Below are positions 1,985-46,814 of a DNA stretch of 46,814 nt, one piece after another. This DNA is from a virus. Location of the stretch: the IMG/VR virus record IMGVR_UViG_3300020215_000068, positions 1 through 46,814 of that record; one strand, 5' to 3'. Position 1 is the stretch's first letter. The number at the start of each line of letters is the position of its first letter. Position numbers and translations under genes: made by a program. Below the pieces are notes generated by a model. The model was given only the letters and a program-made list of their open reading frames with translations. It was not told the origin of the DNA and searched no databases.

Positions 1985-4102
1985 ATGACGGTGCCGACCC
2001 TCCCCGATAGTGAACGCCGCACCCGCTACACGGGGGTTTCCTCGTCGACGGGGCCCTTCGACGTCGGTTTCGACCTGTACGGCAACGGGACCGACTATCA
2101 GAACTGGATCGAGGTCTGGGACGACGGCGTGAAGCTGACCGGCGTCACCGACTGGACGATGGACAGCCCGACCGTTTCGATCGCCACCGCCACCGAGCGG
2201 CCGATCACCGACGCCCGGATCACGTTCACGACCGCCCGCTCCGGCACCATCGACATCGTCGGCGCCGACCGCCCGCGGCGCACCGTGCAGCTCACCGAAG
2301 GCACGGGCGAGAGCGCAGCGAACAAGAACCGGACCTATACCCAGCTGGTCGCCCGGCTACGGGAGATGTGGGACAAGTTCTCGCGCGCGGTGCTGGCCCC
2401 ACCGGGCGAGACCATGAACGTGCTTTCGGCGGCCGCCACGCGCGCCAGCCGCTACGCCAAGTTCGACGCCAGCGGGCATCTCACGCACGGCGAAACGGTC
2501 ACGACCATCGAAGGCGGCGCGACCGATGCCGCCGCGAGCGCGGCGGCCGCCGCGGCTTCGGCATCGTCCGCCTCGACCAGCGCCACGAACGCCTCCAACT
2601 CGGCCAGCGCTGCCTCCACGTCGGCCTCGAACGCTTCGACCTCCGCGACGGCTGCGGCGTCGAGCGCTACGGCTGCGGCCGCGGCTGCCGCGGCGCTGGC
2701 GTTCAAATACACATGGGAATCCGACACCGCTGCCTCCGACCCTGGCAGCGGCAAGGTCAGCGTCAACAATGCAGCGCCCGCTTCAGCGACGGCGCTCTAC
2801 ATCTCCGAGACGGACGCGAACAGCAACGGCATCGCGTCTGAGATCGCGCGTTGGGACGACGCGACGAACGCGAGCGGCAAGGCGCGCGTCAAGATCGCGA
2901 AGGACGCGACGAACTTCCTGCTGCTCACCATCACCTCGGCCGAGACCGATAACGGCGCGTGGAAATCCTTCACGGTGTCCGGCGGCATGCTGGTTGGCTC
3001 GCTGGCCGACGGCGACACCGTCTACATCACGGTGGACACGTCCGGCAGCGACGGCTCGGGCACGATCAGCGGCACGGTGGGAACGACCGACAACGCATTC
3101 CCTCGCGCGGATGGTGTCGGCGGGACGACGCTGCAGGGCGGGCGCACCACCGAAAGCGACGCAGGCAAGGTCACCGTCAACTATGAGGACGCCACCACAA
3201 ACACGGTGGTGCACGGCCTGAAGGTCACTCGCACCTCGTCGGGCACGCCGGCCGCCGGTATCGGCACCGGCATCGAGCTCGAGGTCGAGACCGCCGCGGG
3301 GAACAACGAGGTCGGCGCCACGATCGAGGCGGTGACCTCCGACGTGACGTCGACCAGCGAAGACTTCGACCTCGTTCTAAAGACCATGGCCGCCGGCGCT
3401 ACCGCGGCGGAACGGCTGCGCGTTCTGTCCACCGGCGAGATCCGGCGCAGCTCCGGAGGCTTCGACCGCTTCGCTGAAATTGCGGCGCCAAGCACGCCCG
3501 CCTCCGGCAATGTGCACCTCTACGCCAAGACGGACGGGCGCCTCTACGAGAAAGATGACGCCGGGACCGAGCGTGGCCTCTCGTCCGTGGGCAAGCAGCC
3601 GATCTGGATCCCCGCCGGGGCGTGCAAGGCGCGCGCGACGAGTGGCGCGGGCTCCTCGACCTACGACTCCGGCTCGAACGACATCACGATCGCGACGTTC
3701 GATTTCGATACGTCATCGCAGGAATACATCCACACCTGTCCGATCGCCATGCCGAAAGCGTGGAACGAGTCGACGGTGACCGCCGTCATCCATTGGACGA
3801 ACACCGGCGGCGCCTCGACGCAGACCGTGCGCTGGACGGTCGCCGGCTTGGCAGTGTCGGACGACGACACGCTCAACGGCACCTTCGGAACGGCCGTGAA
3901 TATCGACGATACTTGGCTCGCTCAGAACGACGAGCACAAGACCTCGGAGTCTGGTGCGATCACCATCGGGGGCTCGCCCGCCGAGGGGGATCTCGTCATC
4001 TTCCAGATTTCGCGCGACGTTGCGAACGACAACATGGCGGGCGATGCCAACTTCATCGGCATCACGCTGTACATCACCACGAATGCACCCACGGACGACT
4101 GA
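1985..4102 (+). CDS. Tail fibre protein
   Basis: A 705-residue structural protein, probably the host-recognition fibre. Residues about 13-135 (RYTGVSSSTGPFDVGFDLY and following) match the T7 gp17 N-terminal type that anchors the fibre to the tail. A low-complexity Ala/Ser hinge, roughly residues 178-235, is typical of phage tail repeats in trimeric shafts. Repetitive beta-rich Thr/Ser/Gly sequence follows, and the C-terminal third (from KQPIWIPAGA) resembles the knob or receptor-binding end of fibres. The start at 1985 is SD-less and lies 41 bases after a GGTGCGTTG motif. The stop overlaps the next ATG by one base. Confidence 0.85.
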   Translation: MTVPTLPDSERRTRYTGVSSSTGPFDVGFDLYGNGTDYQNWIEVWDDGVKLTGVTDWTMDSPTVSIATATERPITDARITFTTARSGTIDIVGADRPRRTVQLTEGTGESAANKNRTYTQLVARLREMWDKFSRAVLAPPGETMNVLSAAATRASRYAKFDASGHLTHGETVTTIEGGATDAAASAAAAAASASSASTSATNASNSASAASTSASNASTSATAAASSATAAAAAAAALAFKYTWESDTAASDPGSGKVSVNNAAPASATALYISETDANSNGIASEIARWDDATNASGKARVKIAKDATNFLLLTITSAETDNGAWKSFTVSGGMLVGSLADGDTVYITVDTSGSDGSGTISGTVGTTDNAFPRADGVGGTTLQGGRTTESDAGKVTVNYEDATTNTVVHGLKVTRTSSGTPAAGIGTGIELEVETAAGNNEVGATIEAVTSDVTSTSEDFDLVLKTMAAGATAAERLRVLSTGEIRRSSGGFDRFAEIAAPSTPASGNVHLYAKTDGRLYEKDDAGTERGLSSVGKQPIWIPAGACKARATSGAGSSTYDSGSNDITIATFDFDTSSQEYIHTCPIAMPKAWNESTVTAVIHWTNTGGASTQTVRWTVAGLAVSDDDTLNGTFGTAVNIDDTWLAQNDEHKTSESGAITIGGSPAEGDLVIFQISRDVANDNMAGDANFIGITLYITTNAPTDD

Positions 4103-5386: not shown

Positions 5387-5418
5387 CCGCCGGCTGCTCG
5401 CTCGGCACCATGCGAGCC

Positions 5419-5994
5419 ATGCGCTTGCTCCTCGCCATCGGCCTCTGGGCCTCCCTGATGTGTCAGGCCGCCGCTGATGACGCGGCGTTCGAGGCGGCGT
5501 GGGACCGCATTGCAGCCGAAGTGAACCCAGCGAAACCTGCCCCGATCGCGACGTCAGCCGATCGAGCGAACATTTTCGCCCGTTATGAGGCATCACTCCT
5601 GCAGCCGGTGGGAAACTGCCGCGAGTGGGAGACGGTCGACGCACGGGTGAAGCGGGTCGTCTCGGACGCGGCCGCGCACTTCCGCGGCGTGGCGAAGCTG
5701 ACCAGCTGCTACCGCAGCAAGGCCCATAACCGCCGGGTCCGCGGCGCGAAGCGCTCCATGCACATCGCCCGCAAGGCGCTCGACTTCGTGGTCGAGCGCG
5801 AGGGCGCGCCCGTCAACAAGGACGCGCTGGCCAGGTGGGTGCGCCATCACCCGCTCATGCGCAAGCGGGGCGGGGTCGGCCTCTATCGGATGGCCGCGAT
5901 CCACGTCGATTCCGGGAAGTACCGCAATTGGGACCGGCGCAGGGGTAAGGCGCGCAAGAAAGCGCGCACCAGATACGCGGGGTTGAGACGATGA
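5419..5994 (+). CDS. Secreted M15-family peptidase (endolysin/peptidoglycan peptidase)
   Basis: 191 residues. An N-terminal signal peptide (RLLLAIGLWASLMCQAAA) directs export. The catalytic part has the M15 zinc pattern: a His after Ser in SMHIARKALDF (H115, D122) and a final IHVDSG (H162, D164), preceded by SCYRSKAHNRRV. Such enzymes cut D,L or D,D bonds in peptidoglycan cross-bridges. A second ATG at 5410 exists, but 5419 keeps the 41-base distance to the upstream motif. It opens the lysis block and overlaps the next gene by 4 bases (ATGA). An alternative is a periplasmic carboxypeptidase-like accessory. Confidence 0.78.
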   Translation: MRLLLAIGLWASLMCQAAADDAAFEAAWDRIAAEVNPAKPAPIATSADRANIFARYEASLLQPVGNCREWETVDARVKRVVSDAAAHFRGVAKLTSCYRSKAHNRRVRGAKRSMHIARKALDFVVEREGAPVNKDALARWVRHHPLMRKRGGVGLYRMAAIHVDSGKYRNWDRRRGKARKKARTRYAGLRR

Positions 5995-6377
5995 CACGGG
6001 TTCACAAGGATGCGCTGATCGCGCTGGCTCTGGCGGCGATGTTCGTTGTGGGGGTTCGGCATCTTGCACGCGCGCAGGATTATCAAGGGCGCCACGGGCA
6101 CGGACATGACCGCTGGCACGGCGAGTTCTATTCCAAGCTGAAGCGCAACGACACGAAGACGAGCTGCTGCGACCTCTCGGACTGTGTGCCGACCCAGTCG
6201 CGCATGGTCGGCGCGCGCCACCAGGTCATGGTGGATGGCGAGTGGACGGATGTCCCGCCCGAGGTGATCCAGAAAGTCACCGCGCCCGACGGCGGCGCGC
6301 ATGTGTGCTTCCCGAAGCCGAGTCCTCTCTATCCGAAGGGCACGCTGTTCTGCGTCGTCCTGCCCCCGGAGACCTGA
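5991..6377 (+). CDS. Small secreted Cys-rich protein of the lysis cassette
   Basis: 128 residues. The N-terminal segment LIALALAAMFVVGVRHLARAQ is a signal peptide or anchor. The mature part is His-rich at first (GRHGHGHDRWHGEFY) and has conserved-looking Cys pairs (TSCCDLSDC, HVC, FC) that could form disulfides in the periplasm. It overlaps the peptidase gene by ATGA and ends 3 bases before the endolysin. Similar proteins occur near lysis genes and prophages in Hyphomicrobiales, but I know no defined function. Involvement in lysis is inferred from position. Confidence 0.7.
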   Translation: MTRVHKDALIALALAAMFVVGVRHLARAQDYQGRHGHGHDRWHGEFYSKLKRNDTKTSCCDLSDCVPTQSRMVGARHQVMVDGEWTDVPPEVIQKVTAPDGGAHVCFPKPSPLYPKGTLFCVVLPPET

Positions 6378-6380
6378 TAG

Positions 6381-7166
6381 ATGAACCGCGCGGTCCTCTT
6401 CTCCGCATTGCGCGGCCCGCTGTTCAACGGGCGCATGTCGGAGACACAGGTCTCCGGCGTAGAGGCCATTCTCGACGAGTGGCAACGCCGGCGCCTCACG
6501 GACCTGCGCTGGCTTGCCTACATTCTCGCGACGGCGTTCCACGAGACCGGTCGCGCGATGCAGCCCGTCATCGAGACGCGGCAGCTCAGCGAGACGCAGA
6601 ACCCGAGCGTCGACACAGCGATCGCGCGCCTCGAGCGCGCCTGGCGCGACGGCAAGATGCCGTGGGTGAAACGGGCCTATTGGCGCAAGGACAAGAGCGG
6701 GCTCTCGTGGCTCGGGCGCGGCCTGCCGCAGGTCACACACCTAGAGAACTACGCTTGGGCCGAGGAGGCGACCGGCATTCCGTTCACCAAAAACCCGGAC
6801 CTCATGCTGGCAATGGAGAACGCGATCCCGGTGATGTTTATCGGCATGATCGAGGGCAAGTTCACCGGCAAGAAGCTCGGCGACTACTTTGACGTCGACA
6901 CTGAGGACTGGTTCAACGCGCGCCGCATCATCAATGCAACGGAGAGTGCCGAGAAGGTCGCGGGCTACGCAAAGCAGTTCCACAGTGCGCTGCTCACCGC
7001 CCATGCCGCGGCGACCGAGGTGCGCATCCCACCGCCGCCCGACATCGAGCCAATGCCGCCGAAGGCGCCGGACATCGTGCTGCCTTCTCCCGGTGCGCGC
7101 GGCAATCTACCGCCGACGCCGACGTTCTGGGCGGCAGTAAAGCAACTGTTCAGCACGAAGGGCTGA
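6381..7166 (+). CDS. GH19/lysozyme-like endolysin
   Basis: 261 residues. The core resembles glycoside hydrolase family 19 chitinase-like phage endolysins: LAYILATAFHETG places the likely catalytic Glu at position 55 after His54, followed by WLGRGLPQVTHLENYAW and FNARRIINATESAEKVAGYAKQF. It should cleave the glycan strands of peptidoglycan. A Pro-rich tail (about residues 215-250) may be a linker. There is no signal peptide, so it needs a holin, and two holin-like genes follow directly. With the M15 peptidase upstream, the phage carries two different wall-cutting activities. Confidence 0.82.
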   Translation: MNRAVLFSALRGPLFNGRMSETQVSGVEAILDEWQRRRLTDLRWLAYILATAFHETGRAMQPVIETRQLSETQNPSVDTAIARLERAWRDGKMPWVKRAYWRKDKSGLSWLGRGLPQVTHLENYAWAEEATGIPFTKNPDLMLAMENAIPVMFIGMIEGKFTGKKLGDYFDVDTEDWFNARRIINATESAEKVAGYAKQFHSALLTAHAAATEVRIPPPPDIEPMPPKAPDIVLPSPGARGNLPPTPTFWAAVKQLFSTKG

Positions 7167-14127: not shown

Positions 14128-14322
14128 GCCTGCTCCTCTCGCGCTGTCACCATGCTAGCGCCCCATGGGGCCGCATGGCGTTTGGGGAAGGGGCGATGAC
14201 TGACTAGTCCGTTATTTTTCAACAACGTGACCCACGTCACGGGGCACCGACAGAATTGGAATTGCTGAGACATTTCAATCGGCCCGTAAGTCATCGTCAG
14301 TCATCACCCTTCGCGTCTCGTT
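14128..14322. other. Non-coding gap after integrase: candidate attP region
   Basis: The gap is 195 bases, more AT-rich than its surroundings. GGGCGATGACTGAC (14191-14204) recurs inverted as GTCAGTCATCACCC (14296-14309), with one mismatch, and a further AGTCATC lies at 14289-14295. Between them is a perfect hairpin CGTGAC-N4-GTCACG (14226-14241) next to a TTATTTTTC run. Repeats flanking a short AT-rich core next to an integrase are what attP arm sites look like, but the core cannot be named without the host site. Confidence 0.45.
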
Positions 14323-15558
14323 CTAGCCGTCCGTTCGCTTCTTGTTCCGGTGCTCGACCCGGATCTTCATCACGTTCGCGACCTTATCGACCGAGCCGCG
14401 GCTGTAGTTCTGGGTCGTGCTGATGTCGCTGTGGGTCGCGGCGTGCCGGATGTGCTCGAGATCGGCCCCGGCGTCCGTGGCCTCGCTGATCGCGCCCGCG
14501 CGGCTGTCCATGTTGCGGACGGTCTTCGGCAGGCCGGCGGCGTCGGCCACCATGCGCCATTCCCGGCGGAATTGGTGGGAGTGATAGGGCAGGGCCGTCG
14601 CCTCGTAGATGATCAGCGGCCCGGAGGTCGGCAGCGCGCCGCGCTCTTTGATGATGCGGCCGAGCTCTTCCATGACCATCGGGCAGTTGTGCAGATCCAC
14701 CTCGATCGCCTTCAGGCGCTTGCTGGTGACGTGCCGGAACACGAGGTTGGCGTCGATCTCCTCCCAGCGGGCGCCGCGCAGCCACTTCTCCTGGCCAAAC
14801 GTCGTGTCCGACAGGCCCGGCTCAGACATGGGCACCCACTCGCCGATCACGTCCTTTTGCCGGAGCATGAGGTCGAACTGCATCGCCTGGGCGAAGCCGA
14901 TCGAGTGCAGGCCGAGATAGTGGGCCTTCTCGCGCACGGCGCACGCCTGCTCGTAGGTCAGACGCTCGTTGCGCGGCTTCGGCATCTTGAAGCGCATGCG
15001 GTGCAGGACGCCCGCAAGGCGCTCGCATTCGTCGTTTTCGAGGATGGTGGCGCCGAAGTTGAACAGCGTGCGGAGCATGCCGACCAGGCTGTGCGCCATG
15101 GCAATGTGGCCGCCGGCCGTCCAGCCCTCATGCCATCGCAGGATGTCGCGGGCCTTGATGCTGTGCAGCTCGATCTCGCCGCAGTCGCGCACCAGCCGGC
15201 GCGTCAGGCTGCCGTACTGCTCGCGAGTGTGGAAGCGCAGCTTGCGGTACGATGAGTCCGGGTCTGTTTCATAACAGGCAATCAGGCTCCGCATCGTGCC
15301 CGTGAAGCTGGTGGCATCGGGCAGGCCACCGCGGCCCCAGACCAGCATTTCGGCCTGCAGCTTGCCGCAGCGGTCCTGAATGAACGCGATCTCCGCGGCC
15401 GTGGGCACGGTGCCCTTCCACAGCCGGATCGTCTTGGGCGTGAAGCCACGCTTCACCAGATCCGTGCGAGCCTGCCAGCGCGCTTCCCAGCCGACTAGGC
15501 GTGGGCGCCACGTTAGCCCCGGTGCATTCTCGATCACCGGAGGACCATTAGATGTCAT
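14323..15558 (-). CDS. int: Tyrosine recombinase integrase
   Basis: 411 residues. Catalytic candidates are Arg233 (LMLRQKD), Lys280 (TSKRLK), box II Arg353 (NMDSRAG, where the usual His is Asp), His376 (HAATHSD) and nucleophile Tyr385 (TTQNYSRG). It joins phage and host att sites, making the phage temperate. The start overlaps the stop of the excisionase-like gene (ATGA). The variant D-S-R in box II is seen in related rhizobial phage integrases as I recall them. It is part of the leftward early operon. Confidence 0.9.
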   Translation of the reverse strand: MTSNGPPVIENAPGLTWRPRLVGWEARWQARTDLVKRGFTPKTIRLWKGTVPTAAEIAFIQDRCGKLQAEMLVWGRGGLPDATSFTGTMRSLIACYETDPDSSYRKLRFHTREQYGSLTRRLVRDCGEIELHSIKARDILRWHEGWTAGGHIAMAHSLVGMLRTLFNFGATILENDECERLAGVLHRMRFKMPKPRNERLTYEQACAVREKAHYLGLHSIGFAQAMQFDLMLRQKDVIGEWVPMSEPGLSDTTFGQEKWLRGARWEEIDANLVFRHVTSKRLKAIEVDLHNCPMVMEELGRIIKERGALPTSGPLIIYEATALPYHSHQFRREWRMVADAAGLPKTVRNMDSRAGAISEATDAGADLEHIRHAATHSDISTTQNYSRGSVDKVANVMKIRVEHRNKKRTDG

Positions 15559-34259: not shown

Positions 34260-34899
34260 GCGTCCGTCCTACATCCCGGAGCAGTTCTGGGATCCGCAGG
34301 CGAACACGGTCAAGGAGCAGGACTTCTCGGCCGAGCTCAATCGCCTCACCGCGGTGGACCTCGAGAACAAGACGCGCCTCGCTGCGGTGCCCGCGAAGCC
34401 TGACGACTATCAGCTCGTCAACTCGTCCGACTTCAAGCTGCCCGACGATTTCGCTTTCGAGTTCGACGCCGCGAATCCGGGTTACGCCGCGCTGCGCGAG
34501 TTCGCGCAGGCGAATGGCGTCTCGCAGACCGGCTTCTCGAAGCTGCTCGACATCTACGTGCAGGACAAGGTCGCCGAGGCGCAGTTCGTCCAGGCCGAGA
34601 GCGCGAAGCAGGTCGAGAAGCTCGGCGCCAACGGCCCGGCCCGCGTCGACACCGTGAAGGCCTGGTTCAAGGCGCGCCTCGGTGAGGAGGCCGCGGCAAT
34701 CATCATGGAGCGCCCCGTCATCGCGGCCGAGATCGAGGCCTACGAGAAACTGATGGCGGCGTTCTCGAATGTCGTGCCGTTCAGCAACCAGAACCGCGAA
34801 CGGCCGACGAACCAGCCCTCCGAAGAGGAGTGGAACAAGCTGAACCCGAGCGCACGCCTCGCTCTCGGGCGCAAACTCGAACAGACCACCGGTCGCTGA
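34126..34899 (+). CDS. Scaffolding protein
   Basis: 257 residues from GTG 34126 with GGAGAA upstream. A disordered Pro/Ser/Ala/Thr N-terminus (about 1-48), then PSYIPEQFWDPQANTVKEQDFSAELNRL, a sequence typical of podovirus capsid assembly scaffolds, and long charged helices to the C-terminus. It guides shell formation and then leaves the head. Immediately upstream of the major capsid gene. Confidence 0.82.
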   Translation: MPDPVTTPTSPSSSSPASPSPSPAAPAPSAASSPTPDPTPAPKAERPSYIPEQFWDPQANTVKEQDFSAELNRLTAVDLENKTRLAAVPAKPDDYQLVNSSDFKLPDDFAFEFDAANPGYAALREFAQANGVSQTGFSKLLDIYVQDKVAEAQFVQAESAKQVEKLGANGPARVDTVKAWFKARLGEEAAAIIMERPVIAAEIEAYEKLMAAFSNVVPFSNQNRERPTNQPSEEEWNKLNPSARLALGRKLEQTTGR

Positions 34900-34912
34900 A
34901 AGGGCCTGACAG

Positions 34913-35854
34913 ATGGCACAGATGACGCTCAACGAATACGCCAAGGGCCTGCCCATGGGCACGCGGCGCGCGGTGATCGAGATGTTCGCCGAGTCGTCGG
35001 ACATCTTCCAGGCCTTGCCCTTCGAGGGCATGAACGGCCCGGTCTATGAGAACCACCGCCAGGTCTCGCTGCCTGCTCCGGCCTTCCGCGGCATCAACGA
35101 GAATTCGTCCACCGGCGCCGGCCGCCTGGAGCCCTTCCAGGAGGCGAGCTACCTGATGGACCACGATATCGACATCGATATCGCGCTGGTCCGCCGCTAC
35201 GGCGAGGAGCGCCGCGCGCAGAACGAGCGCATGGTGATCGCGGCCGCCGGCAAGAAGTGGGTCGACACCTTCATCGGCGGCGACAACGCCACCGAGCCGC
35301 GCGAGTTCAACGGCCTGCAGGCGCGCTCCGCGCTCTACTCGCGCACGCTGGCGAACTCCAATGCCTCGGGCGGCGCGGCGCTCTCCCTCGCCAAGCTCGA
35401 TCAGGCCATCAACATGGTCAACAAGAGCGGCGGCAAGAGCTACATCATCGCGCCGTTCGACTCGATCCCGCTCTGGATCGCGGCCGCGCGCACCACCACG
35501 CTCTCCGGCTTCGTCATCCAGACATGGGACGAGATCGGCAAGCCCAAGATGAGCTACGGCGGCCTGCCGTTCCTCTGGGGCTACGAGAAGGACGACCACA
35601 CCCCGGTGCTGGCCTTCGACGAGGTCGGCAGCGGCGGCGGATCGGCGGTGACGGCCTCGCTCTACGTCGTTTGCTTCGGCGAGGGCAAGGTGCACGGCCT
35701 GCAGCAGTCGCCGATGGCGGTCGACGATGTCGGCCTCCTCGAGGACCGCATCACCATGCGGACGCATCTCTCTTGGGACGTCGGCCTTGTCGACGGCCAC
35801 AAGTATTCCTTCGCCCGACTGACGTCGTGGACCAACGCGGCGATTGTCGCCTGA
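34913..35854 (+). CDS. Major capsid protein
   Basis: 313 residues, HK97-fold expected. Begins MTLNEYAKGLPMGTRRAVIEMFAESSDIFQALPFEGMNG, then KWVDTFIGGDNATEPREFNGLQARS, a stretch typical of capsid proteins of this podovirus group, and ends HLSWDVGLVDGHKYSFARLTSWTNAAIV. AAAGGG upstream. Follows scaffold and precedes a cement protein, the standard head order. Confidence 0.88.
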   Translation: MAQMTLNEYAKGLPMGTRRAVIEMFAESSDIFQALPFEGMNGPVYENHRQVSLPAPAFRGINENSSTGAGRLEPFQEASYLMDHDIDIDIALVRRYGEERRAQNERMVIAAAGKKWVDTFIGGDNATEPREFNGLQARSALYSRTLANSNASGGAALSLAKLDQAINMVNKSGGKSYIIAPFDSIPLWIAAARTTTLSGFVIQTWDEIGKPKMSYGGLPFLWGYEKDDHTPVLAFDEVGSGGGSAVTASLYVVCFGEGKVHGLQQSPMAVDDVGLLEDRITMRTHLSWDVGLVDGHKYSFARLTSWTNAAIVA

Positions 35855-35870
35855 CCAAGAGGAGGGCCCC

Positions 35871-36311
35871 ATGGGTCGCCGCACGTACAACTACGACAAC
35901 GACCAGCTGATGAAGGACGCCGGCCTCGTCGCAGCTTCGGCTGCGGCTCAGGTTGGCGGCTCCAACAAGATCCTCGACATGGGTGCCGGCCGCTTCGAGG
36001 GCGTGCTGGTGGTCGACGTGACCGCAATCGAGATCGCGTCGAACGACGAGGAATACGACATCATCGTGCAGGGCTCCTCGTCCTCGTCCTTCGCGTCGGA
36101 CATCCAGAACCTGGGCCAGCTCAACCTCGGCGCCACCGAGGTGCGGCAGGGCGGCGCGATCGACAGCACCACGGGTCGCTACGAGCTTCTGTTCACGAAC
36201 GAGCAGGACGATACGGTCTACCGCTACATCCGGGTCTACACGGTTGTCGCGGGCTCGATCGCCACAGGCATCAACTACACGGCGTTCGTTGCGCCGCTGC
36301 CCGGCAAGTGA
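35871..36311 (+). CDS. Bbp16-like capsid cement protein
   Basis: 146 residues from ATG 35871 (AGAGGAGGG upstream). ILDMGAGRFEGVLVVDVTAIEIASNDEEYDIIVQGSSSSSFASDIQNLGQLNLGATEV and RYELLFTNEQDDTVYRYIRVYTVVAGSIATGINYTAFVAPLP follow the Bbp16 jelly-roll family that stabilises Bordetella phage BPP-1 heads. Directly behind the capsid gene, as there. Confidence 0.75.
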   Translation: MGRRTYNYDNDQLMKDAGLVAASAAAQVGGSNKILDMGAGRFEGVLVVDVTAIEIASNDEEYDIIVQGSSSSSFASDIQNLGQLNLGATEVRQGGAIDSTTGRYELLFTNEQDDTVYRYIRVYTVVAGSIATGINYTAFVAPLPGK

Positions 36312-36324
36312 TCGGAGAACAGCG

Positions 36325-36483
36325 ATGCCAGCGATCGTGAAACTGTGGGACGCCGAGAAGGGTGACTTCGTGGACATGTTCGCCATCAAGGCGCGCGAAG
36401 CCCTGAAGAACGACTCGAAGCGCTATTCGTCCGAGAAGCCGGAGCCGAAGGCGGCGAAGGCCGACGGCAAGAAGGAGGCCTGA
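36325..36483 (+). CDS. Small Lys-rich protein
   Basis: 52 residues: MPAIVKLWDAEKGDFVDMFAIKAREALKNDSKRYSSEKPEPKAAKADGKKEA, a short fold with a Lys/Ala-rich tail. Between cement and the secreted-type gene. Homologues occupy this place in related phages as I recall; function unknown. Confidence 0.6.
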   Translation: MPAIVKLWDAEKGDFVDMFAIKAREALKNDSKRYSSEKPEPKAAKADGKKEA

Positions 36484-36485
36484 CC

Positions 36486-37076
36486 ATGATCCGCCGCGCG
36501 TTCGCGCTTGTGACGCTCGCCGCGCTCGCGCTCGGCGGGCTCCTTGTCGAAGGCTGGCGCTCGCCAGCCGATGCCGCCTCCCTCCAGATGTGCGCCCCGT
36601 CCCGCGCGGGTGCCGCGCTCGGCCCGGCTCGCTGGGTTGCGCCGACCTCCGGCACGACCTACGGGCTGAATGCCCGCGGGTGCGCCCTGATCTCGTCCAC
36701 GGACAACGGCGACGCGGTCGCGGCGGGCTTTGTGCTCGACGCTCCGCACGGCTCGGTGGTCCGTTCCGGCATCACGACGTCGGCGAGCGGCAACACGCTG
36801 GTCATTCCGGCTGGCGCGGTTCCGGTCGGCGGCATCGTGCAGGAGACGTCGGGCGGAACAGTCTCGGGCAACCTGAAGCTCGGCACGACGAACGGCGGAA
36901 CGCAGATGTTCAACGGGACGATGACCATCCCGGCGAGCACCGCGAAGATCCTGAGCCAGGCGCACTTCGCGATTACGAACTACACGCCGTCCTCGCCGAC
37001 GACGATCTACGTCGACACGACTGGCCAGTTCGGCACGGGCGCGGTCTCGGTGACGATTTTCTACGCCTACTACTGA
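36486..37076 (+). CDS. Secreted/structural protein with signal peptide
   Basis: 196 residues. The N-terminus (RRAFALVTLAALALGGLLVEGWRSPADAA) is a signal peptide, unexpected among head genes. The rest is Gly/Thr/Ser-rich beta sequence (IPAGAVPVGGIVQETSGGTVSGNLKLGTTNGGTQMF and a final AVSVTIFYAYY) like a phage tail or capsid-decorating domain. GGAGG precedes ATG. It leads into the O-antigen ligase-like gene 9 bases on, so it may act in the periplasm rather than in the virion. Confidence 0.65.
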   Translation: MIRRAFALVTLAALALGGLLVEGWRSPADAASLQMCAPSRAGAALGPARWVAPTSGTTYGLNARGCALISSTDNGDAVAAGFVLDAPHGSVVRSGITTSASGNTLVIPAGAVPVGGIVQETSGGTVSGNLKLGTTNGGTQMFNGTMTIPASTAKILSQAHFAITNYTPSSPTTIYVDTTGQFGTGAVSVTIFYAYY

Positions 37077-37085
37077 CCCGCGTTC

Positions 37086-38165
37086 GTGGGAGCGTTCACG
37101 GGTCAGCAAATGGGGCCAGCGGCGGTCGGGTTCGTCCCGGCCGCCGTTGCATTTCTGCTGACCGTCGCCTTCGTCCCTTGGTTCACGAACGCCGCGACCG
37201 CGCCGCGCTGGGCGCTGCTGAGCGTGGCGGTGCCGGCATTGCTTTACATTTCCGGCCGGAATGTGCGTCACGCTGAATATGCGTCGCTCCTCGGCCTCGC
37301 CTTCCTCGCCTACGCCGCTGCGTCGCTCGCCTGGGCGCCCGACCCCTATCAGGGCGCATGGCTGCTCTGGCAGTGGGCGTTGCTCGCCGGCTGCTTCGTG
37401 GTCGGGGCGCGGCTGCCGTCGCTGCGGCCGGTGGTGATCGCGGCCGGGATCGGGCTGGCGATCAGCGGTGCGCTCGCGATCGCGCAGGCCTTCGGCTGGC
37501 GCGGCATCCCGCAGAACAATGCCCCGGCCGGGCTGTTCGTGAACCGCAACTACCTCGCCGAGGCCGCGGTGCTCGCGCTGGTCGGCGCCGTCGGCTATCG
37601 GCTCTGGTGGCTCGCGGTGGCGCTGGTCCCGGCCGTGGTGCTGCCCACCGCGCGCGGCGCGGCCGTGGCGCTCGCTGGCGTGGGTGCCGCGTGGCTGTGG
37701 ACAAGGTCGCGCGCGACGGCGCTGTGGTTGATAGCCCTGGGGATGATCGGGGTTTCGCTCACGTTCTCAGCGCACAACGCCAGCATGGCGCAGCGCCTCG
37801 ACCTGTGGAAATCCACAGTTGCGGGCCTGACCTGGGCGGGTTCCGGCATCGGCTCGTTCTATGCGCGGTTCCCGTCTCATGCGCCGTCGTGGCCGCTGCT
37901 CGAGCACCGCCCCGTGCACGCGCACAGCGACCCGCTTGAGCTCGTCTACGAGTTCGGGATCGGCGCCGCGCCGATAGGTGCGTTGCTGGTGATCCTGATG
38001 TGGGGCCCTCTCACTCCTGCGCGGGCGATGCTGCTCGCATTCCTGATCGAGGGCGCCTTTGGCTTCCCGCTTCGCTGGCCCGTTACGGCGTTCCTTGCGG
38101 CCCTGGCTGCTGGGCACCTTTGCCGCGAGCGGGATGGTGGTTGCGGCCGCGCTGCTCACCGCTGA
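37086..38165 (+). CDS. O-antigen ligase/polymerase-like membrane protein (Wzy_C type)
   Basis: 359 residues from GTG 37086 (ATG 37110 possible), about ten membrane helices. The Wzy_C/WaaL pattern is clear: GLFVNRNYLAEAAVLAL, a conserved Arg in PTARGAAVALAG, then a large outer loop (SMAQRLDLWKSTVAGLTWAGSGIGSFYARFP) ending HAHSDPLELVYEFGIGAAPIG. Such proteins polymerise or ligate surface polysaccharide in the periplasm. It sits inside the head-tail operon without its own promoter. The TPR gene after it probably completes it. Likely seroconversion or receptor alteration; inferred. Confidence 0.8.
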   Translation: MGAFTGQQMGPAAVGFVPAAVAFLLTVAFVPWFTNAATAPRWALLSVAVPALLYISGRNVRHAEYASLLGLAFLAYAAASLAWAPDPYQGAWLLWQWALLAGCFVVGARLPSLRPVVIAAGIGLAISGALAIAQAFGWRGIPQNNAPAGLFVNRNYLAEAAVLALVGAVGYRLWWLAVALVPAVVLPTARGAAVALAGVGAAWLWTRSRATALWLIALGMIGVSLTFSAHNASMAQRLDLWKSTVAGLTWAGSGIGSFYARFPSHAPSWPLLEHRPVHAHSDPLELVYEFGIGAAPIGALLVILMWGPLTPARAMLLAFLIEGAFGFPLRWPVTAFLAALAAGHLCRERDGGCGRAAHR

Positions 38166-38508
38166 GATCCTTCACGCCGTCGCGTTCACTCAGACCCATC
38201 GCCCAGCCGCGATGCTGCTGCTGCAGCGCTCGGCCGGGGTTTTCCCGCTCGATTTCCGGCTGCGGCAGGCGCCGGCGGTGTTCTGCTCCGAGACGCGCTG
38301 GAAGGGCTCCGGGCCCGACTGCATTGCGGCGCTGCGCGCCGAACTGCGGGTCAACCCGTTCTCGGCCGACCTGCGGCGAAATCTGGCGGGCTTCCTGATC
38401 GAGGCGGGCGACATGGAAGGGGCCAAGCGCGAGCTCGGCGTTGTTTCCGCTCTGCAGCCTGGGCGCAACATCGTTCTTTCGGTCAACGTCAACCCGGGGA
38501 CACGCTGA
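38131..38508 (+). CDS. Membrane-anchored TPR-like protein
   Basis: 125 residues from ATG 38131; a TTG at 38059 would add 24. An N-terminal anchor (VVAAALLTAEILHAVAF), then repeated helices and one clear TPR unit: NPFSADLRRNLAGFLIEAGDMEGAKRELGVVSALQPG. Chromosomal Wzy_C proteins often carry TPRs at their C-terminus; here they seem to be a separate gene overlapping the polymerase by 35 bases. The ALL-SAG-FPLDFRLRQAPAVF region also resembles those fusions. Confidence 0.68.
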   Translation, partial: GMVVAAALLTAEILHAVAFTQTHRPAAMLLLQRSAGVFPLDFRLRQAPAVFCSETRWKGSGPDCIAALRAELRVNPFSADLRRNLAGFLIEAGDMEGAKRELGVVSALQPGRNIVLSVNVNPGTR

Positions 38509-38600
38509 TGTGGTGGTGGATCGCCACGGTCGGCTTCTCGATCTGCCTCGCCGTGCTGATCTGCTGGGGCGAGGAGATCGAGGCGGCTCTCGACCGATAG
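38508..38600 (+). CDS. 30-residue single-TM peptide
   Basis: MWWWIATVGFSICLAVLICWG then EEIEAALDR. The start overlaps the TPR gene stop (TGATG). One membrane helix with Trp-rich start. It closes the membrane block, 42 bases before the tail genes. May be a polymerase subunit, holin-like peptide or translation spacer. Confidence 0.58.
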   Translation: MWWWIATVGFSICLAVLICWGEEIEAALDR

Positions 38601-38601
38601 G

Positions 38602-38610
38602 GGTGCGTTG
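38602..38610 (+). promoter_or_regulatory. GGTGCGTTG late-block motif, tail genes
   Basis: GGTGCGTTG starts 41 bases before ATG 38643, in the 42-base gap after the membrane peptide. No standard Shine-Dalgarno sequence precedes that ATG. Confidence 0.6.
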
Positions 38611-38642
38611 CCACATGCGGGTCCGGGGCGGATCGTCCCAGC

Positions 38643-39251
38643 ATGGCCTATTCCAAGCTCAGCATCATCAACACCGCCCTCCTGCTGAAGGGCCAGAACA
38701 CCGTCAACGAAGAGGATGACGGCTCCCAGGAGTGGAACGTCTGCTCGGCCGCCTATGACCAAGGCGCCAAGCACCTCCTGCAGGAGCACGACTGGAAGTT
38801 TGCCACCGACATCATCCAGCTGACCCGGCTCGGTGACAGCCCGGACCACAATTATGAGGACGAATACCAGAAGCCGGCCGGCACGCTGCAGATCGTCTGG
38901 GTGAAGCTGACGGACGACGCGGACGACGTCGATTCCGGCTTCGAGAGTACCGACTGGAAGGTCGTCAACAACAAGATCCTGTTGACTGATGACGACAGCG
39001 AGGTGGTTGCCAAGGTCGTGCTCGAGCCCGACCCGAACGACTGGCCGCCGATGTTCGTCTCCGCGCTGCAGGAGTACGTGTTCGCCGGGATCGAGGGTGG
39101 CCTGAAAAAAGATACCAGAGCGCAGATGGCGCACCAGGCGAGCGCGCTGGAGTTCCTCACCCGGGCGAAAACGCGCACCGACCAGCAGGAGCCGAAGCGC
39201 GCTCTCTTCAAGACGAGGCACCGCACCGCCCGCCTTGTCCGGAGGGGATAG
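38643..39251 (+). CDS. Tail tubular protein A (T7 gp11-like)
   Basis: 202 residues: MAYSKLSIINTALLLKGQNTVNEEDDGSQEWNVCSAAYDQGAKHLLQEHDWKFA is the N-terminal signature of the podovirus adaptor (gp11, NTALLLLG-then-HDWKFA) that binds the portal ring. The C-terminal part is helical with a basic end. Stop and next start share bases, as usual for gp11/gp12. Confidence 0.88.
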   Translation: MAYSKLSIINTALLLKGQNTVNEEDDGSQEWNVCSAAYDQGAKHLLQEHDWKFATDIIQLTRLGDSPDHNYEDEYQKPAGTLQIVWVKLTDDADDVDSGFESTDWKVVNNKILLTDDDSEVVAKVVLEPDPNDWPPMFVSALQEYVFAGIEGGLKKDTRAQMAHQASALEFLTRAKTRTDQQEPKRALFKTRHRTARLVRRG

Positions 39252-41926
39252 TGTCCCAGCGGCAGCGCCAGCTTTTCCGGCAGCGAGACTTCTCCGGCGG
39301 CGAGATCGTCCCCTACGCCAAGCGCCGGGACGACCTCGAGATGGTGCGCGCCGGCTGCCGTCAGCTCAAGAACCGGCGCATCCTACAGACGGGCGGCACC
39401 GAGCAACGACCTGGCCGGTCGGCGCTGTTCTGCGATGGCGCGCGTGTCGACGACGTGCGGATGTCCGCCACCGTCACCTATCGCCTCTGCTTCGCGGCCG
39501 GTGTCCTGCGCATCCGCAACTCGTCCGGTGTGGTGGTTGCGACCCTGGGCGGCATGCCGTGGACGACGGCGGCGCTCGATAAGATCCGCTGGGCCCGCTA
39601 CAACAACGACATCTTCATCTGCTTCACGGCGATGAAGCCGATCGTCGCGACGTGGGACGGCTCGTCCACATGGACGTTTGCCGAATTCGCGTTCCGCAAC
39701 GGCCCTGATGGCGTTCCGCGCATGCCGTTCTATCGCTTCGCCGCGAGCGGCGTGACGCTGACGATTTCCGGCTCTCCTTCGGCGTCAGGCATGACCGGGT
39801 CGCTCACGGTTACGGCCTCGTCGAGCGTGTTCGTTTCATCGCATGTCGGCGTCGTGTTCCGCTTCCATGAGCGGCTATTCCGGGTCACCGGCTACACGTC
39901 CGGGACGCAGGTCACGGTTACGGCGCTCGAAGCGCTGTCGCCGACCTGCACCGTCGGTGTGACGTCGGGCGCCGACTATTCGGTGGGCGATGTGGTCGAG
40001 GGCGCCGACACTGGCGCGCAGGGTTATATCGCGGCGATCAGCACGAACAACCTGTCCGTGATCCTGACCTATCGCATGACAGGCTTCTCCGGCGCCGCCG
40101 CGGAACTGATCGTCGGCCCGCGTGGCAAGCAGGCGACCTCGGGCGCGTCGACCTTCCCGGCAAGTAACTCGCCGAGCCCGGTGTGGGACGAACAGATCAT
40201 CTCGGATTATCGCGGCTGGCCGCAGTCGGTGTCGGTCGATCAGAACCGCCTGATCTTCTCCGACCTTGTGAGCGTGCCGGGCGCGGTGCTCTGGTCGGCG
40301 ATCGGTGACCCCTACGACTTCAAGGTGACCGCCGATGCGGACGGCGCGATCGCCGAGATCGTGCCCGGCAACCCACGCGTCTATGACGTCGTGGGCGCTC
40401 TGTCCGACGAATTCGTGTTCACCGATCAGGGTATCCGCAATGTTCCGATCTCGGTGTCGAACCCGCTCACGCCCGGCTCGGTCGCATTCAACCTGATCAC
40501 CGACGAGCCTGCGTCGCAGGTCCGCCCGATCCCGACGAACGAGGGCGTGTTCTTCGTCAACGACGCGCAGAACCGCGTGAAGGTGGTCGTCGGCACCGGT
40601 CAGAGCGCGCGTCCCTACGTGGTCCGCGACGTCTCCGAGATGCACGGACATCTGTTCTCGGGCGTGAAGAAACTCGCGGTCACGTCGGGCGCGGGCGAGG
40701 TCGTCGACCGCTACATCTACGCGCTCAACGACGACGGCACGATGGCCGTGGGCAAGCTCAACGCCGCGAAGGACTGGATCGGCTGGACGCCATGGGAGAG
40801 CGGCGGGTCCGGCACCTTCTCCTGGGTATCCTCGCTCGGCGGCGATGTTCTCACGACCTCGCTCTACGGCTCGCGCTATCTCACCGAGGTGATCGACGCG
40901 GACGCCTACCTTGACGCGCAGGTCACGCTCAACAGCATCCCGACGGCGCTCGGCACCGGCACCGACAGCGACATTCAATTCGCTCATTGGGCTGGCTCGC
41001 GCATCGGCGACATGACGGCGTCCGGGGGCCTTGCCGCCGGCTTCGACAATACGACGAGCCAGGCCGCGAGCGCGTGTGCCGGCAAGTCGTCGGCCACGAC
41101 TGCCTATATCGGGAAGACGCTGACCACGGCGTTGCCGATCAAGAAGGTCGTGGTGCACGGCTCAAGCGATGCCGGCTACGTGTCGGGCGCGAACCCCTCC
41201 GTGACGATCACGCTCTACGGCAAGAACGGCTCGGCGCCGGCGAACGGCACAGACGGGACGTCGCTCGGCTCCACGACGTTCACCGACACGGCGAATGAAT
41301 CCTCCGGCCGAACGATCAACTCCAGCGACACCGCGACCGCCTACACGCATGTCTGGGTGTACGTGACGCAGGCTGGCGCTGCCGCGACGATGTCGGTCGC
41401 CGAGGTGGTTTTTCACACGCCCGGCCTGACGCGCGCGGCGAGCGGCGGCGGCACGGGCTCGCTCTGGTTCCTGGAGAGTCAGACGATCGACATGATGGAC
41501 GGGCTCTCGTATCTCGGCGACCGCGCCGTAGAAGCGGACGGCGACGTCACGGCCGAGGAGGGCGACGACCTCACGGTCGCCACGCTGGTCACCGGCTTCA
41601 AGTGGGAAGAGGTCATCGAGCCCTTCGTCCCGCATGTCGGCGAGGGGCAGTCGGTCAACCAGACCATGCAGCGCCGCAATCTCGGCAACGCAGCCATCGC
41701 GGTGCAAAACTCGGTCGGCTTCCTGGTGCGCAAGACCGACGGAACGTTGCTGCGCCGGATCGATCCCTACCGCGTTGGCGACAACCAGGACGAGGAACCG
41801 ACCGTGCGCGAAGAGGTGTGGGTCGTGCCCGTCAACGGCTCCGACTTCGATCCGCGTTTCGAGGTCGCGCGCGACGTGCCTGGCCCGAACCGCATCCTTG
41901 AAATCTCCTTCGACCCCGAGGTCTGA
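39251..41926 (+). CDS. Tail tubular protein B (T7 gp12-like) with inserted domain
   Basis: 891 residues from GTG 39251; T7 gp12 is about 794. Typical start SQRQRQLFRQRDFSGGEIVPYAKRRDDLEMVRAGCRQLKNRRILQTGGTEQRPG and middle WDEQIISDYRGWPQSVSVDQNRLIFSDLVSVPGAVLWSAIGDPYDF form the beta-propeller nozzle. Residues about 585-725 (IGDMTASGGLAAGFDN to SVAEVVFH) are an added discoidin-like domain, the same type as the 4497-5000 gene, and account for the extra length. The nozzle serves as tail tip and DNA channel. Confidence 0.88.
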   Translation: MSQRQRQLFRQRDFSGGEIVPYAKRRDDLEMVRAGCRQLKNRRILQTGGTEQRPGRSALFCDGARVDDVRMSATVTYRLCFAAGVLRIRNSSGVVVATLGGMPWTTAALDKIRWARYNNDIFICFTAMKPIVATWDGSSTWTFAEFAFRNGPDGVPRMPFYRFAASGVTLTISGSPSASGMTGSLTVTASSSVFVSSHVGVVFRFHERLFRVTGYTSGTQVTVTALEALSPTCTVGVTSGADYSVGDVVEGADTGAQGYIAAISTNNLSVILTYRMTGFSGAAAELIVGPRGKQATSGASTFPASNSPSPVWDEQIISDYRGWPQSVSVDQNRLIFSDLVSVPGAVLWSAIGDPYDFKVTADADGAIAEIVPGNPRVYDVVGALSDEFVFTDQGIRNVPISVSNPLTPGSVAFNLITDEPASQVRPIPTNEGVFFVNDAQNRVKVVVGTGQSARPYVVRDVSEMHGHLFSGVKKLAVTSGAGEVVDRYIYALNDDGTMAVGKLNAAKDWIGWTPWESGGSGTFSWVSSLGGDVLTTSLYGSRYLTEVIDADAYLDAQVTLNSIPTALGTGTDSDIQFAHWAGSRIGDMTASGGLAAGFDNTTSQAASACAGKSSATTAYIGKTLTTALPIKKVVVHGSSDAGYVSGANPSVTITLYGKNGSAPANGTDGTSLGSTTFTDTANESSGRTINSSDTATAYTHVWVYVTQAGAAATMSVAEVVFHTPGLTRAASGGGTGSLWFLESQTIDMMDGLSYLGDRAVEADGDVTAEEGDDLTVATLVTGFKWEEVIEPFVPHVGEGQSVNQTMQRRNLGNAAIAVQNSVGFLVRKTDGTLLRRIDPYRVGDNQDEEPTVREEVWVVPVNGSDFDPRFEVARDVPGPNRILEISFDPEV

Positions 41927-46117: not shown

Positions 46118-46814
46118 GCTTCCGCGATTGCGTGATCTCGGCCCGCGACCAGGGCGTGCTTAGCGAAGACGAGGCGGACGACCTGATCGGCCGCTGGCAG
46201 CGTCACTGGGAGGCGCGGCGCGGCGCCGGCGAGGCGGACCCGGAGGGCGGCGCGCGCACCGCGGTCATCGCCGAGCTCGAGGAGGAGGCCGCCCGCAAGG
46301 CACAGCTGGCCGCGCTCTCGGCCGCGAAGCAGGAGGAGCTTTCGGCCTACCTCTCGGGCTACCGGGACGTGAAGGGCCGCCCTGACGTGTTCGGCGGCAT
46401 CATCAACCTGTTCGAGAACTTCGGCACCGGCGCGGGCACCTCGTCCGTCGCGGGTCGCGCCAAGGCGATCACCGCCCTCGCGCATGGCGAGCTCGCTGAC
46501 ATGCTTTCGACCTTCCGCCGCTCGCGCCTGACCGGTCGCCGCTTCAACAAGCCGGGCGTCGACAACGTGGTCCGCGAGGTGCTCGGCGAGTCCTCCGGCG
46601 ACGAGGCGGCGCGCGGCATGGGTGAGGCGGTCGCCCGGGTGTTCGAGCATCTGCGCGAGCGCTTCAACGCCGCGGGCGGGCAGATCGGCGATCTCGGCCG
46701 CTACCTGCCGCAATTCCATGAGCCGGGCGCCCTGCTGCGCGCCGGCTATGAGCGCTGGGCCGAGTTCATCCGGCCGCGCCTCGACCTCGACCGCATGCGC
46801 GACCCGCTCACCGG
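46114..46814 (+). CDS. Internal virion (ejection) protein, N-terminal part
   Basis: The first 233 residues of the approximately 830-residue protein that continues at the left end (residue 227 onward repeats there). MSFRDCVISARDQGVLSEDEADDLIGRWQRHWEARRGAGEADPEGGART begins it, followed by a long Ala/Glu helix (AVIAELEEEAARKAQLAALSAAKQEELSAYLSGYRD) and FGGIINLFENFGTGAGTSSVAGRAKAI. ATG overlaps the previous stop (ATGA). It is cut only by the end of the sequence, not by mutation. Confidence 0.82.
   Translation, partial: MSFRDCVISARDQGVLSEDEADDLIGRWQRHWEARRGAGEADPEGGARTAVIAELEEEAARKAQLAALSAAKQEELSAYLSGYRDVKGRPDVFGGIINLFENFGTGAGTSSVAGRAKAITALAHGELADMLSTFRRSRLTGRRFNKPGVDNVVREVLGESSGDEAARGMGEAVARVFEHLRERFNAAGGQIGDLGRYLPQFHEPGALLRAGYERWAEFIRPRLDLDRMRDPLT
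46689..46814. repeat. Terminal direct repeat, right copy (126 bp)
   Basis: Identical to bases 24-149; see the left copy. Both copies code for the same residues (DLGRYLPQFHEPGALLRAGY and following) in the same frame, which shows that the ends join. Confidence 0.93.

Follow-up and report, generated by a model that had tools for sequence, protein, structure and literature searches.

What would a tailed phage gain from a membrane glycan transferase encoded between its capsid and tail genes? The question is raised by a soil phage (IMG/VR virus record IMGVR_UViG_3300020215_000068), whose whole 46,814-nt sequence is referred to here as the window. A sequence-only reading of the window had proposed two overlapping genes there, an O-antigen ligase or polymerase and a TPR partner, and both open reading frames are present on the plus strand, at 37086 to 38165 and at 38059 to 38508. 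Upstream of the first, on the same strand, lie genes for a Head-tail_con portal, a scaffold-like protein, a GP7-type major capsid protein (34913 to 35854; PF20911, E value of 2.2e-12; phrog_212, 1e-42), two small proteins, and a 196-amino-acid protein (36486 to 37076). The next gene downstream of the pair encodes a tail protein (38643 to 39251; phrog_394, 2.9e-26), and a phrog_376 tail protein is likewise encoded downstream on the plus strand. The proposed location between capsid and tail genes is thus borne out. So is the proposed lack of a recognizable promoter for the pair: only 9 bp separate the 196-amino-acid protein gene from the transferase gene, the late strand block is unbroken, and no sigma-70-like site was found in 34800 to 39300 (0.3 expected), under a model from which rhizobial promoters may differ. 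Expression of the pair is presumably late. A tyrosine integrase gene on the minus strand (14323 to 15558; PF00589, 4.3e-6) indicates that the phage is probably temperate, which leaves room for expression of the pair in lysogens. The last ∼125 bases of the window (about 46690 to 46814) repeat positions 25 to 149, exactly over at least the final 25, and the record is therefore probably a complete genome that closes into a circle, apart from a short unrelated stretch at its start.

Enzyme class and partner protein

The 359-amino-acid protein is read from a GTG start, with an in-frame ATG at 37110 as a possible true start, and contains NRNYLAE, ARGA, QRLDLW, and RPVHAHSDPLELVYEFG, as previously described. 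Taken singly, it matched Pfam Wzy_C weakly (E value of 1e-3, 19.4 bits versus a gathering cutoff of 31.7), and relatives were gathered for that reason. Widening the Wzy-like profiles brought the family to 22 different phage members, the window protein among them, which form alignment A9. All 22 matched PF04932 (Wzy_C), the best at 6.9e-11, and the 22-row profile matched the WaaL structures 7TPG and 7TPJ from Cupriavidus metallidurans with an E value of 3.4e-6, whereas 3-row and 6-row profiles did not find WaaL in the PDB. The protein was not recognized by PHROGs. The sequence-only reading had called for structure prediction, and the enzyme was modeled with AlphaFold. Four homologs gave an unusable model (pLDDT of 44), but the 22 in A9 sufficed (pLDDT of 87.4, pTM of 0.88). 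A Foldseek search of the PDB with this model returned WaaL as the sole match below 0.001 (E value of 1e-4, probability of 1.00, TM of 0.60). The assignment to the Wzy_C/WaaL class, which agrees with the original proposal, is well supported.

Three residues of the phage family align with WaaL residues when counted from the A9-profile alignment, the first of them in a weaker flanking segment. R190 of the ARGA motif (codon at 37653 to 37655) aligns with WaaL R191 and R237 of the QRLDLW motif (37794 to 37796) aligns with R265, each being kept in at least 90% of the 22 members. H280 of the HAHSD motif (37923 to 37925) is kept in 22 of 22 and aligns with H313, the proposed catalytic histidine of WaaL. 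The phage enzyme is thus like WaaL in its fold, two aligned arginines, and a histidine, but it is only ∼16% identical in sequence, has an overlapping TPR-like partner, and is encoded in a phage late operon. In a separate search of a viral structure library, the best match was protein A0A3G2KG04 of Arthrobacter phage Faja (probability of 0.99, TM of 0.48, E value of 0.07). This uncharacterized protein may perhaps be a Wzy/WaaL-type protein in an actinophage, a lead only.

The 149-amino-acid partner has an arginine-rich N terminus, one hydrophobic helix, and a TPR-like C-terminal stretch. Its reading frame overlaps the end of the transferase gene by 107 bp, or by 71 bp from an alternative, ATG-like start at 38095. 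An overlapping downstream partner frame was found with a partner profile at 22 of 22 homologous loci, so the proposal of a partner gene holds; its TPR identity is weaker, with TPR_19 giving an E value of 0.003 (18.4 bits, cutoff of 25) for the window protein and matching 3 of the 22 partner homologs, the best at 8.7e-8. Across the aligned rows, the partner frame contains an FPxxxxxR-type motif within the TPR-like stretch. At some loci, L101 and L108 among them, the Wzy frame continues well beyond the core and overlaps the partner frame over a long distance. The partner match of weak members falls partly within the overlap, and their E values are therefore not independent evidence, but partner conservation beyond the Wzy core is visible in the alignment. 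The positive-inside rule would place the TPR-like part in the periplasm. Bacterial Wzy_C proteins fused to TPR repeats have the same order, Wzy_C and then a TPR-like region, in one polypeptide, whereas the phage uses two overlapping genes.

Distribution of the pair among phages

Relatives of the capsid protein first gave the same gene trio in two other loci, L002 and L003. All of the phage homologs in A9 come from metagenomic contigs, for which gene starts and gene calls were made in this analysis. L091 was found to repeat L019, and L106 lies at or near L094. The homologs are 32 to 51% identical to the window Wzy-like protein. A GP7-type capsid is common to the window, L002, L003, L019, L066, and L093. 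L007 differs in its terminase and portal (phrog_38 and phrog_1216), and the gene layouts of L092, L094, and L096 resemble that of L007; the capsid relation was not seen in the remaining loci within the contig sequence examined. In a phylogenetic tree, the phage proteins separate from 11 Rhizobiales homologs with a support of 1.00, and the L007 and L092 proteins nest among the GP7-type members with supports of 0.75 to 0.81, which suggests exchange between phage types. As a module, the pair recurs in 22 phages with several head types, and it stands in the late operon in every locus examined.

Within its phage family, the pair is accessory. In L004, which lacks the pair, a methyltransferase-like gene (14224 to 15135, minus strand) stands at the same place, antisense to the late genes, so the spot seems to hold accessory genes. 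No relatives of the Wzy-like protein were found in 50,697 phage records, or by direct searches of plasmids and genome contigs. Bacterial genomes with relatives of the capsid protein suggest hosts in the Rhizobiales (Bosea, Microvirga, Methylocystaceae, and Rhizobium); one Arenimonas metagenome-assembled genome also has such a relative. The partner profile gave no match in the short flanks of the Rhizobiales homologs examined.

Exported proteins encoded beside the pair

The 196-amino-acid protein encoded at 36486 to 37076 begins with a signal peptide of the Sec type and carries two conserved cysteines, and a gene of its family stands directly upstream of the transferase gene in the window, L002, L003, L019, and L066. 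It belongs to a wider pattern, as phages of this capsid family carry, between their capsid and tail genes, many genes whose products start with Sec-type signal peptides. Signal peptides were scored by a homemade rule (a basic start, a hydrophobic core, and small residues at -3/-1), which was positive for 38 of 41 members of the 36486 family and for 2 of 41 tail proteins, 0 of 84 capsid proteins, and 0 of 78 and 0 of 38 members of two neighboring families. Cysteine parity provides a sign of export independent of this rule, as even cysteine numbers are a mark of exported, disulfide-bonded proteins. Among mature, nonredundant signal-peptide proteins, 52 have even and 8 have odd cysteine counts (P = 3e-9), while the other nonredundant proteins are divided 50 to 57. 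The alignment of the 36486 family contains exactly two conserved cysteine columns, each occupied in 45 of 45 sequences.

A signal-peptide gene lies immediately upstream of the transferase gene in 14 of the 21 loci with upstream sequence, a count in which related loci are not independent, and most of the other loci have at least one such gene downstream within a few genes. A minority of the 82 signal-peptide neighbors match PHROG tail-fiber or virion families, a beta helix, or a domain of the arabinofuranosidase or esterase kind. The fiber-like protein of the window (1985 to 4102) has no signal peptide; by eye, its N-terminal domain was seen to follow signal peptides in L004, L024, and L025. 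The window also encodes two more small signal-peptide proteins at 5410 to 6377, the second of them (5991 to 6377) cysteine rich, adjoining a lysozyme-like gene (6381 to 7166) in a probable lysis region. Runs of Sec-type signal-peptide genes occur in the late operons of L011 (12831 to 15691), L018 (12697 to 18513), L020 (12455 to 15681), L072 (12792 to 15988), L093 (10127 to 16157), and L107 (9215 to 18080). Their products are beta rich and partly fiber-like with even cysteine counts, and such runs occur also in phages without the pair. That tailed phages should export proteins of virion type would be surprising in itself.

Possible acceptors

Wzy_C enzymes act at the periplasmic face on undecaprenyl-pyrophosphate-linked glycans, and the biological role of the phage enzyme may be sought in the acceptor that it serves. 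Our tentative first choice is a glycan transferase that acts late and faces the periplasm, most probably as an O-oligosaccharyltransferase with exported phage proteins as its acceptors. We infer the glycan source, the topology, the acceptor, and the way in which exported proteins would join virions as follows. The transferase would act late in the inner membrane together with its TPR-like partner, which would be held in the membrane by a single helix, its C-terminal part extending into the periplasm. A host-made undecaprenyl-pyrophosphate-linked glycan would be taken and transferred on the periplasmic side; inspection of the gene lists by eye showed no glycosyltransferase genes next to the pair, which would therefore depend on a glycan of the host. 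The most likely acceptor would be the Sec-exported phage protein encoded adjacently, that at 36486 to 37076 in the window and, in other phages, fiber-like proteins as well. The exported proteins would then meet virions at cell lysis.

Bacterial systems offer parallels. The pilin glycosylation gene tfpO is encoded beside the gene for its pilin substrate, pilA (PMC11626772), and PglS has a WaaL-like core and a periplasmic C-terminal domain (PMC12800693). TfpO, PglS, and PglL share the Wzy_C core with the phage enzyme, and the phage gene, like tfpO, adjoins the gene for a small exported protein. The extra periplasmic part that PglS carries within the enzyme is represented in the phage by a separate partner protein. 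A Pfam scan detected no PglL-specific domain in the phage family, its 22 members matching Wzy_C only. Because the late operon, the exported protein encoded just upstream, and the periplasmic partner parallel TfpO and PglS, we favor protein glycosylation over a change of lipopolysaccharide (LPS) or capsule. The sequence-only reading had listed a virion role solely as "unknown," and neither the recurrence of the pair nor its exported neighbors are visible from the window alone. A recurrent module with Sec-exported, disulfide-type, and partly fiber-like neighbors shifts the balance toward such a role, namely, protein glycosylation.

Other observations count against an exported phage protein as the acceptor. 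In 27 of the 32 complete loci with a member of the 36486 family, the pair is absent, so the 36486 protein does not need the pair. Exclusive co-occurrence of the two was not supported (Fisher P = 0.14), and the 36486 protein shows no Ser/Thr enrichment where it is encoded beside the pair. Tailed phages assemble in the cytoplasm, and thus the export of virion proteins itself needs explaining.

The enzyme might instead modify the host surface, as the earlier reading had suggested for the dying cell. It would ligate or polymerize O-antigen, capsule, or exopolysaccharide of the host, either late in infection or, from an internal promoter, in lysogens. Receptors would thereby be masked, which would keep progeny from sticking to debris or would block superinfection. 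We consider this the main rival explanation, somewhat less probable than protein glycosylation. Among solved structures, the O-antigen ligase WaaL is the nearest, and the pair is accessory in its phage family, as is usual for surface-modifying genes. D3 Wzy-beta and VarioGold VG_p25 are also phage-borne polytopic proteins of the O-antigen polymerase or ligase kind, and known phage Wzy-type genes such as these have been discussed as O-antigen modifiers (PMC9658991, PMC4815439). However, wzy-beta is oriented opposite to the late genes of D3, and the VarioGold O-antigen-ligase-like gene is also opposite to late genes (PMC9658991), whereas the window gene lies inside the late strand block and its homologs share the late-operon location at all loci examined, in place of a separately promoted gene. 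Kinship with D3 Wzy-beta was sought and rejected, as neither hmmsearch nor hhalign gave a match to the A9 family. The contrast with D3 drawn in the earlier reading is therefore upheld. Surface modification also leaves the dedicated partner and the recurrent exported-protein neighborhood unexplained.

It appears unlikely that the enzyme is a Wzy-type polymerase, extending or relinking lipid-linked repeat units of the host to yield a polysaccharide bound by the fiber-like proteins. Polymerases are included in Wzy_C, a TPR-like partner could set chain length, and some signal-peptide neighbors resemble polysaccharide-acting enzymes (arabinofuranosidase and esterase), but the A9 profile matches WaaL and not D3 Wzy-beta, and a Wzz-like gene was not seen beside the pair. 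That the frames arose by chance in GC-rich sequence, or are the decaying remains of a host gene picked up by the phage, might be read from the single-sequence Pfam and TPR scores under their cutoffs, but it is refuted by conservation of the pair and its catalytic residues in 22 phages at 32 to 51% identity to the window protein, including a contig whose terminase and portal differ.

Should the acceptor be LPS or capsule, the pair would alter the surface late, in contrast to classical lysogenic conversion. The genes around the pair raise a larger question, that is, why tailed phages with cytoplasmic assembly would send fiber-like proteins through Sec. A few, literal literature searches on signal-peptide fibers and phage glycosylation yielded no title on either. 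A bolder reading, which we hold to be possible, is that tailed phages run their own protein O-glycosylation, in which Sec-exported, disulfide-bonded, fiber-like virion proteins would be glycosylated in the periplasm with a host lipid-linked glycan by the phage Wzy_C enzyme and its TPR-like partner, to be added to virions when the cell lyses. With a phage protein as the acceptor, the transferase would be, to our knowledge, the first phage-encoded oligosaccharyltransferase, and the virions would be wearing host glycans.
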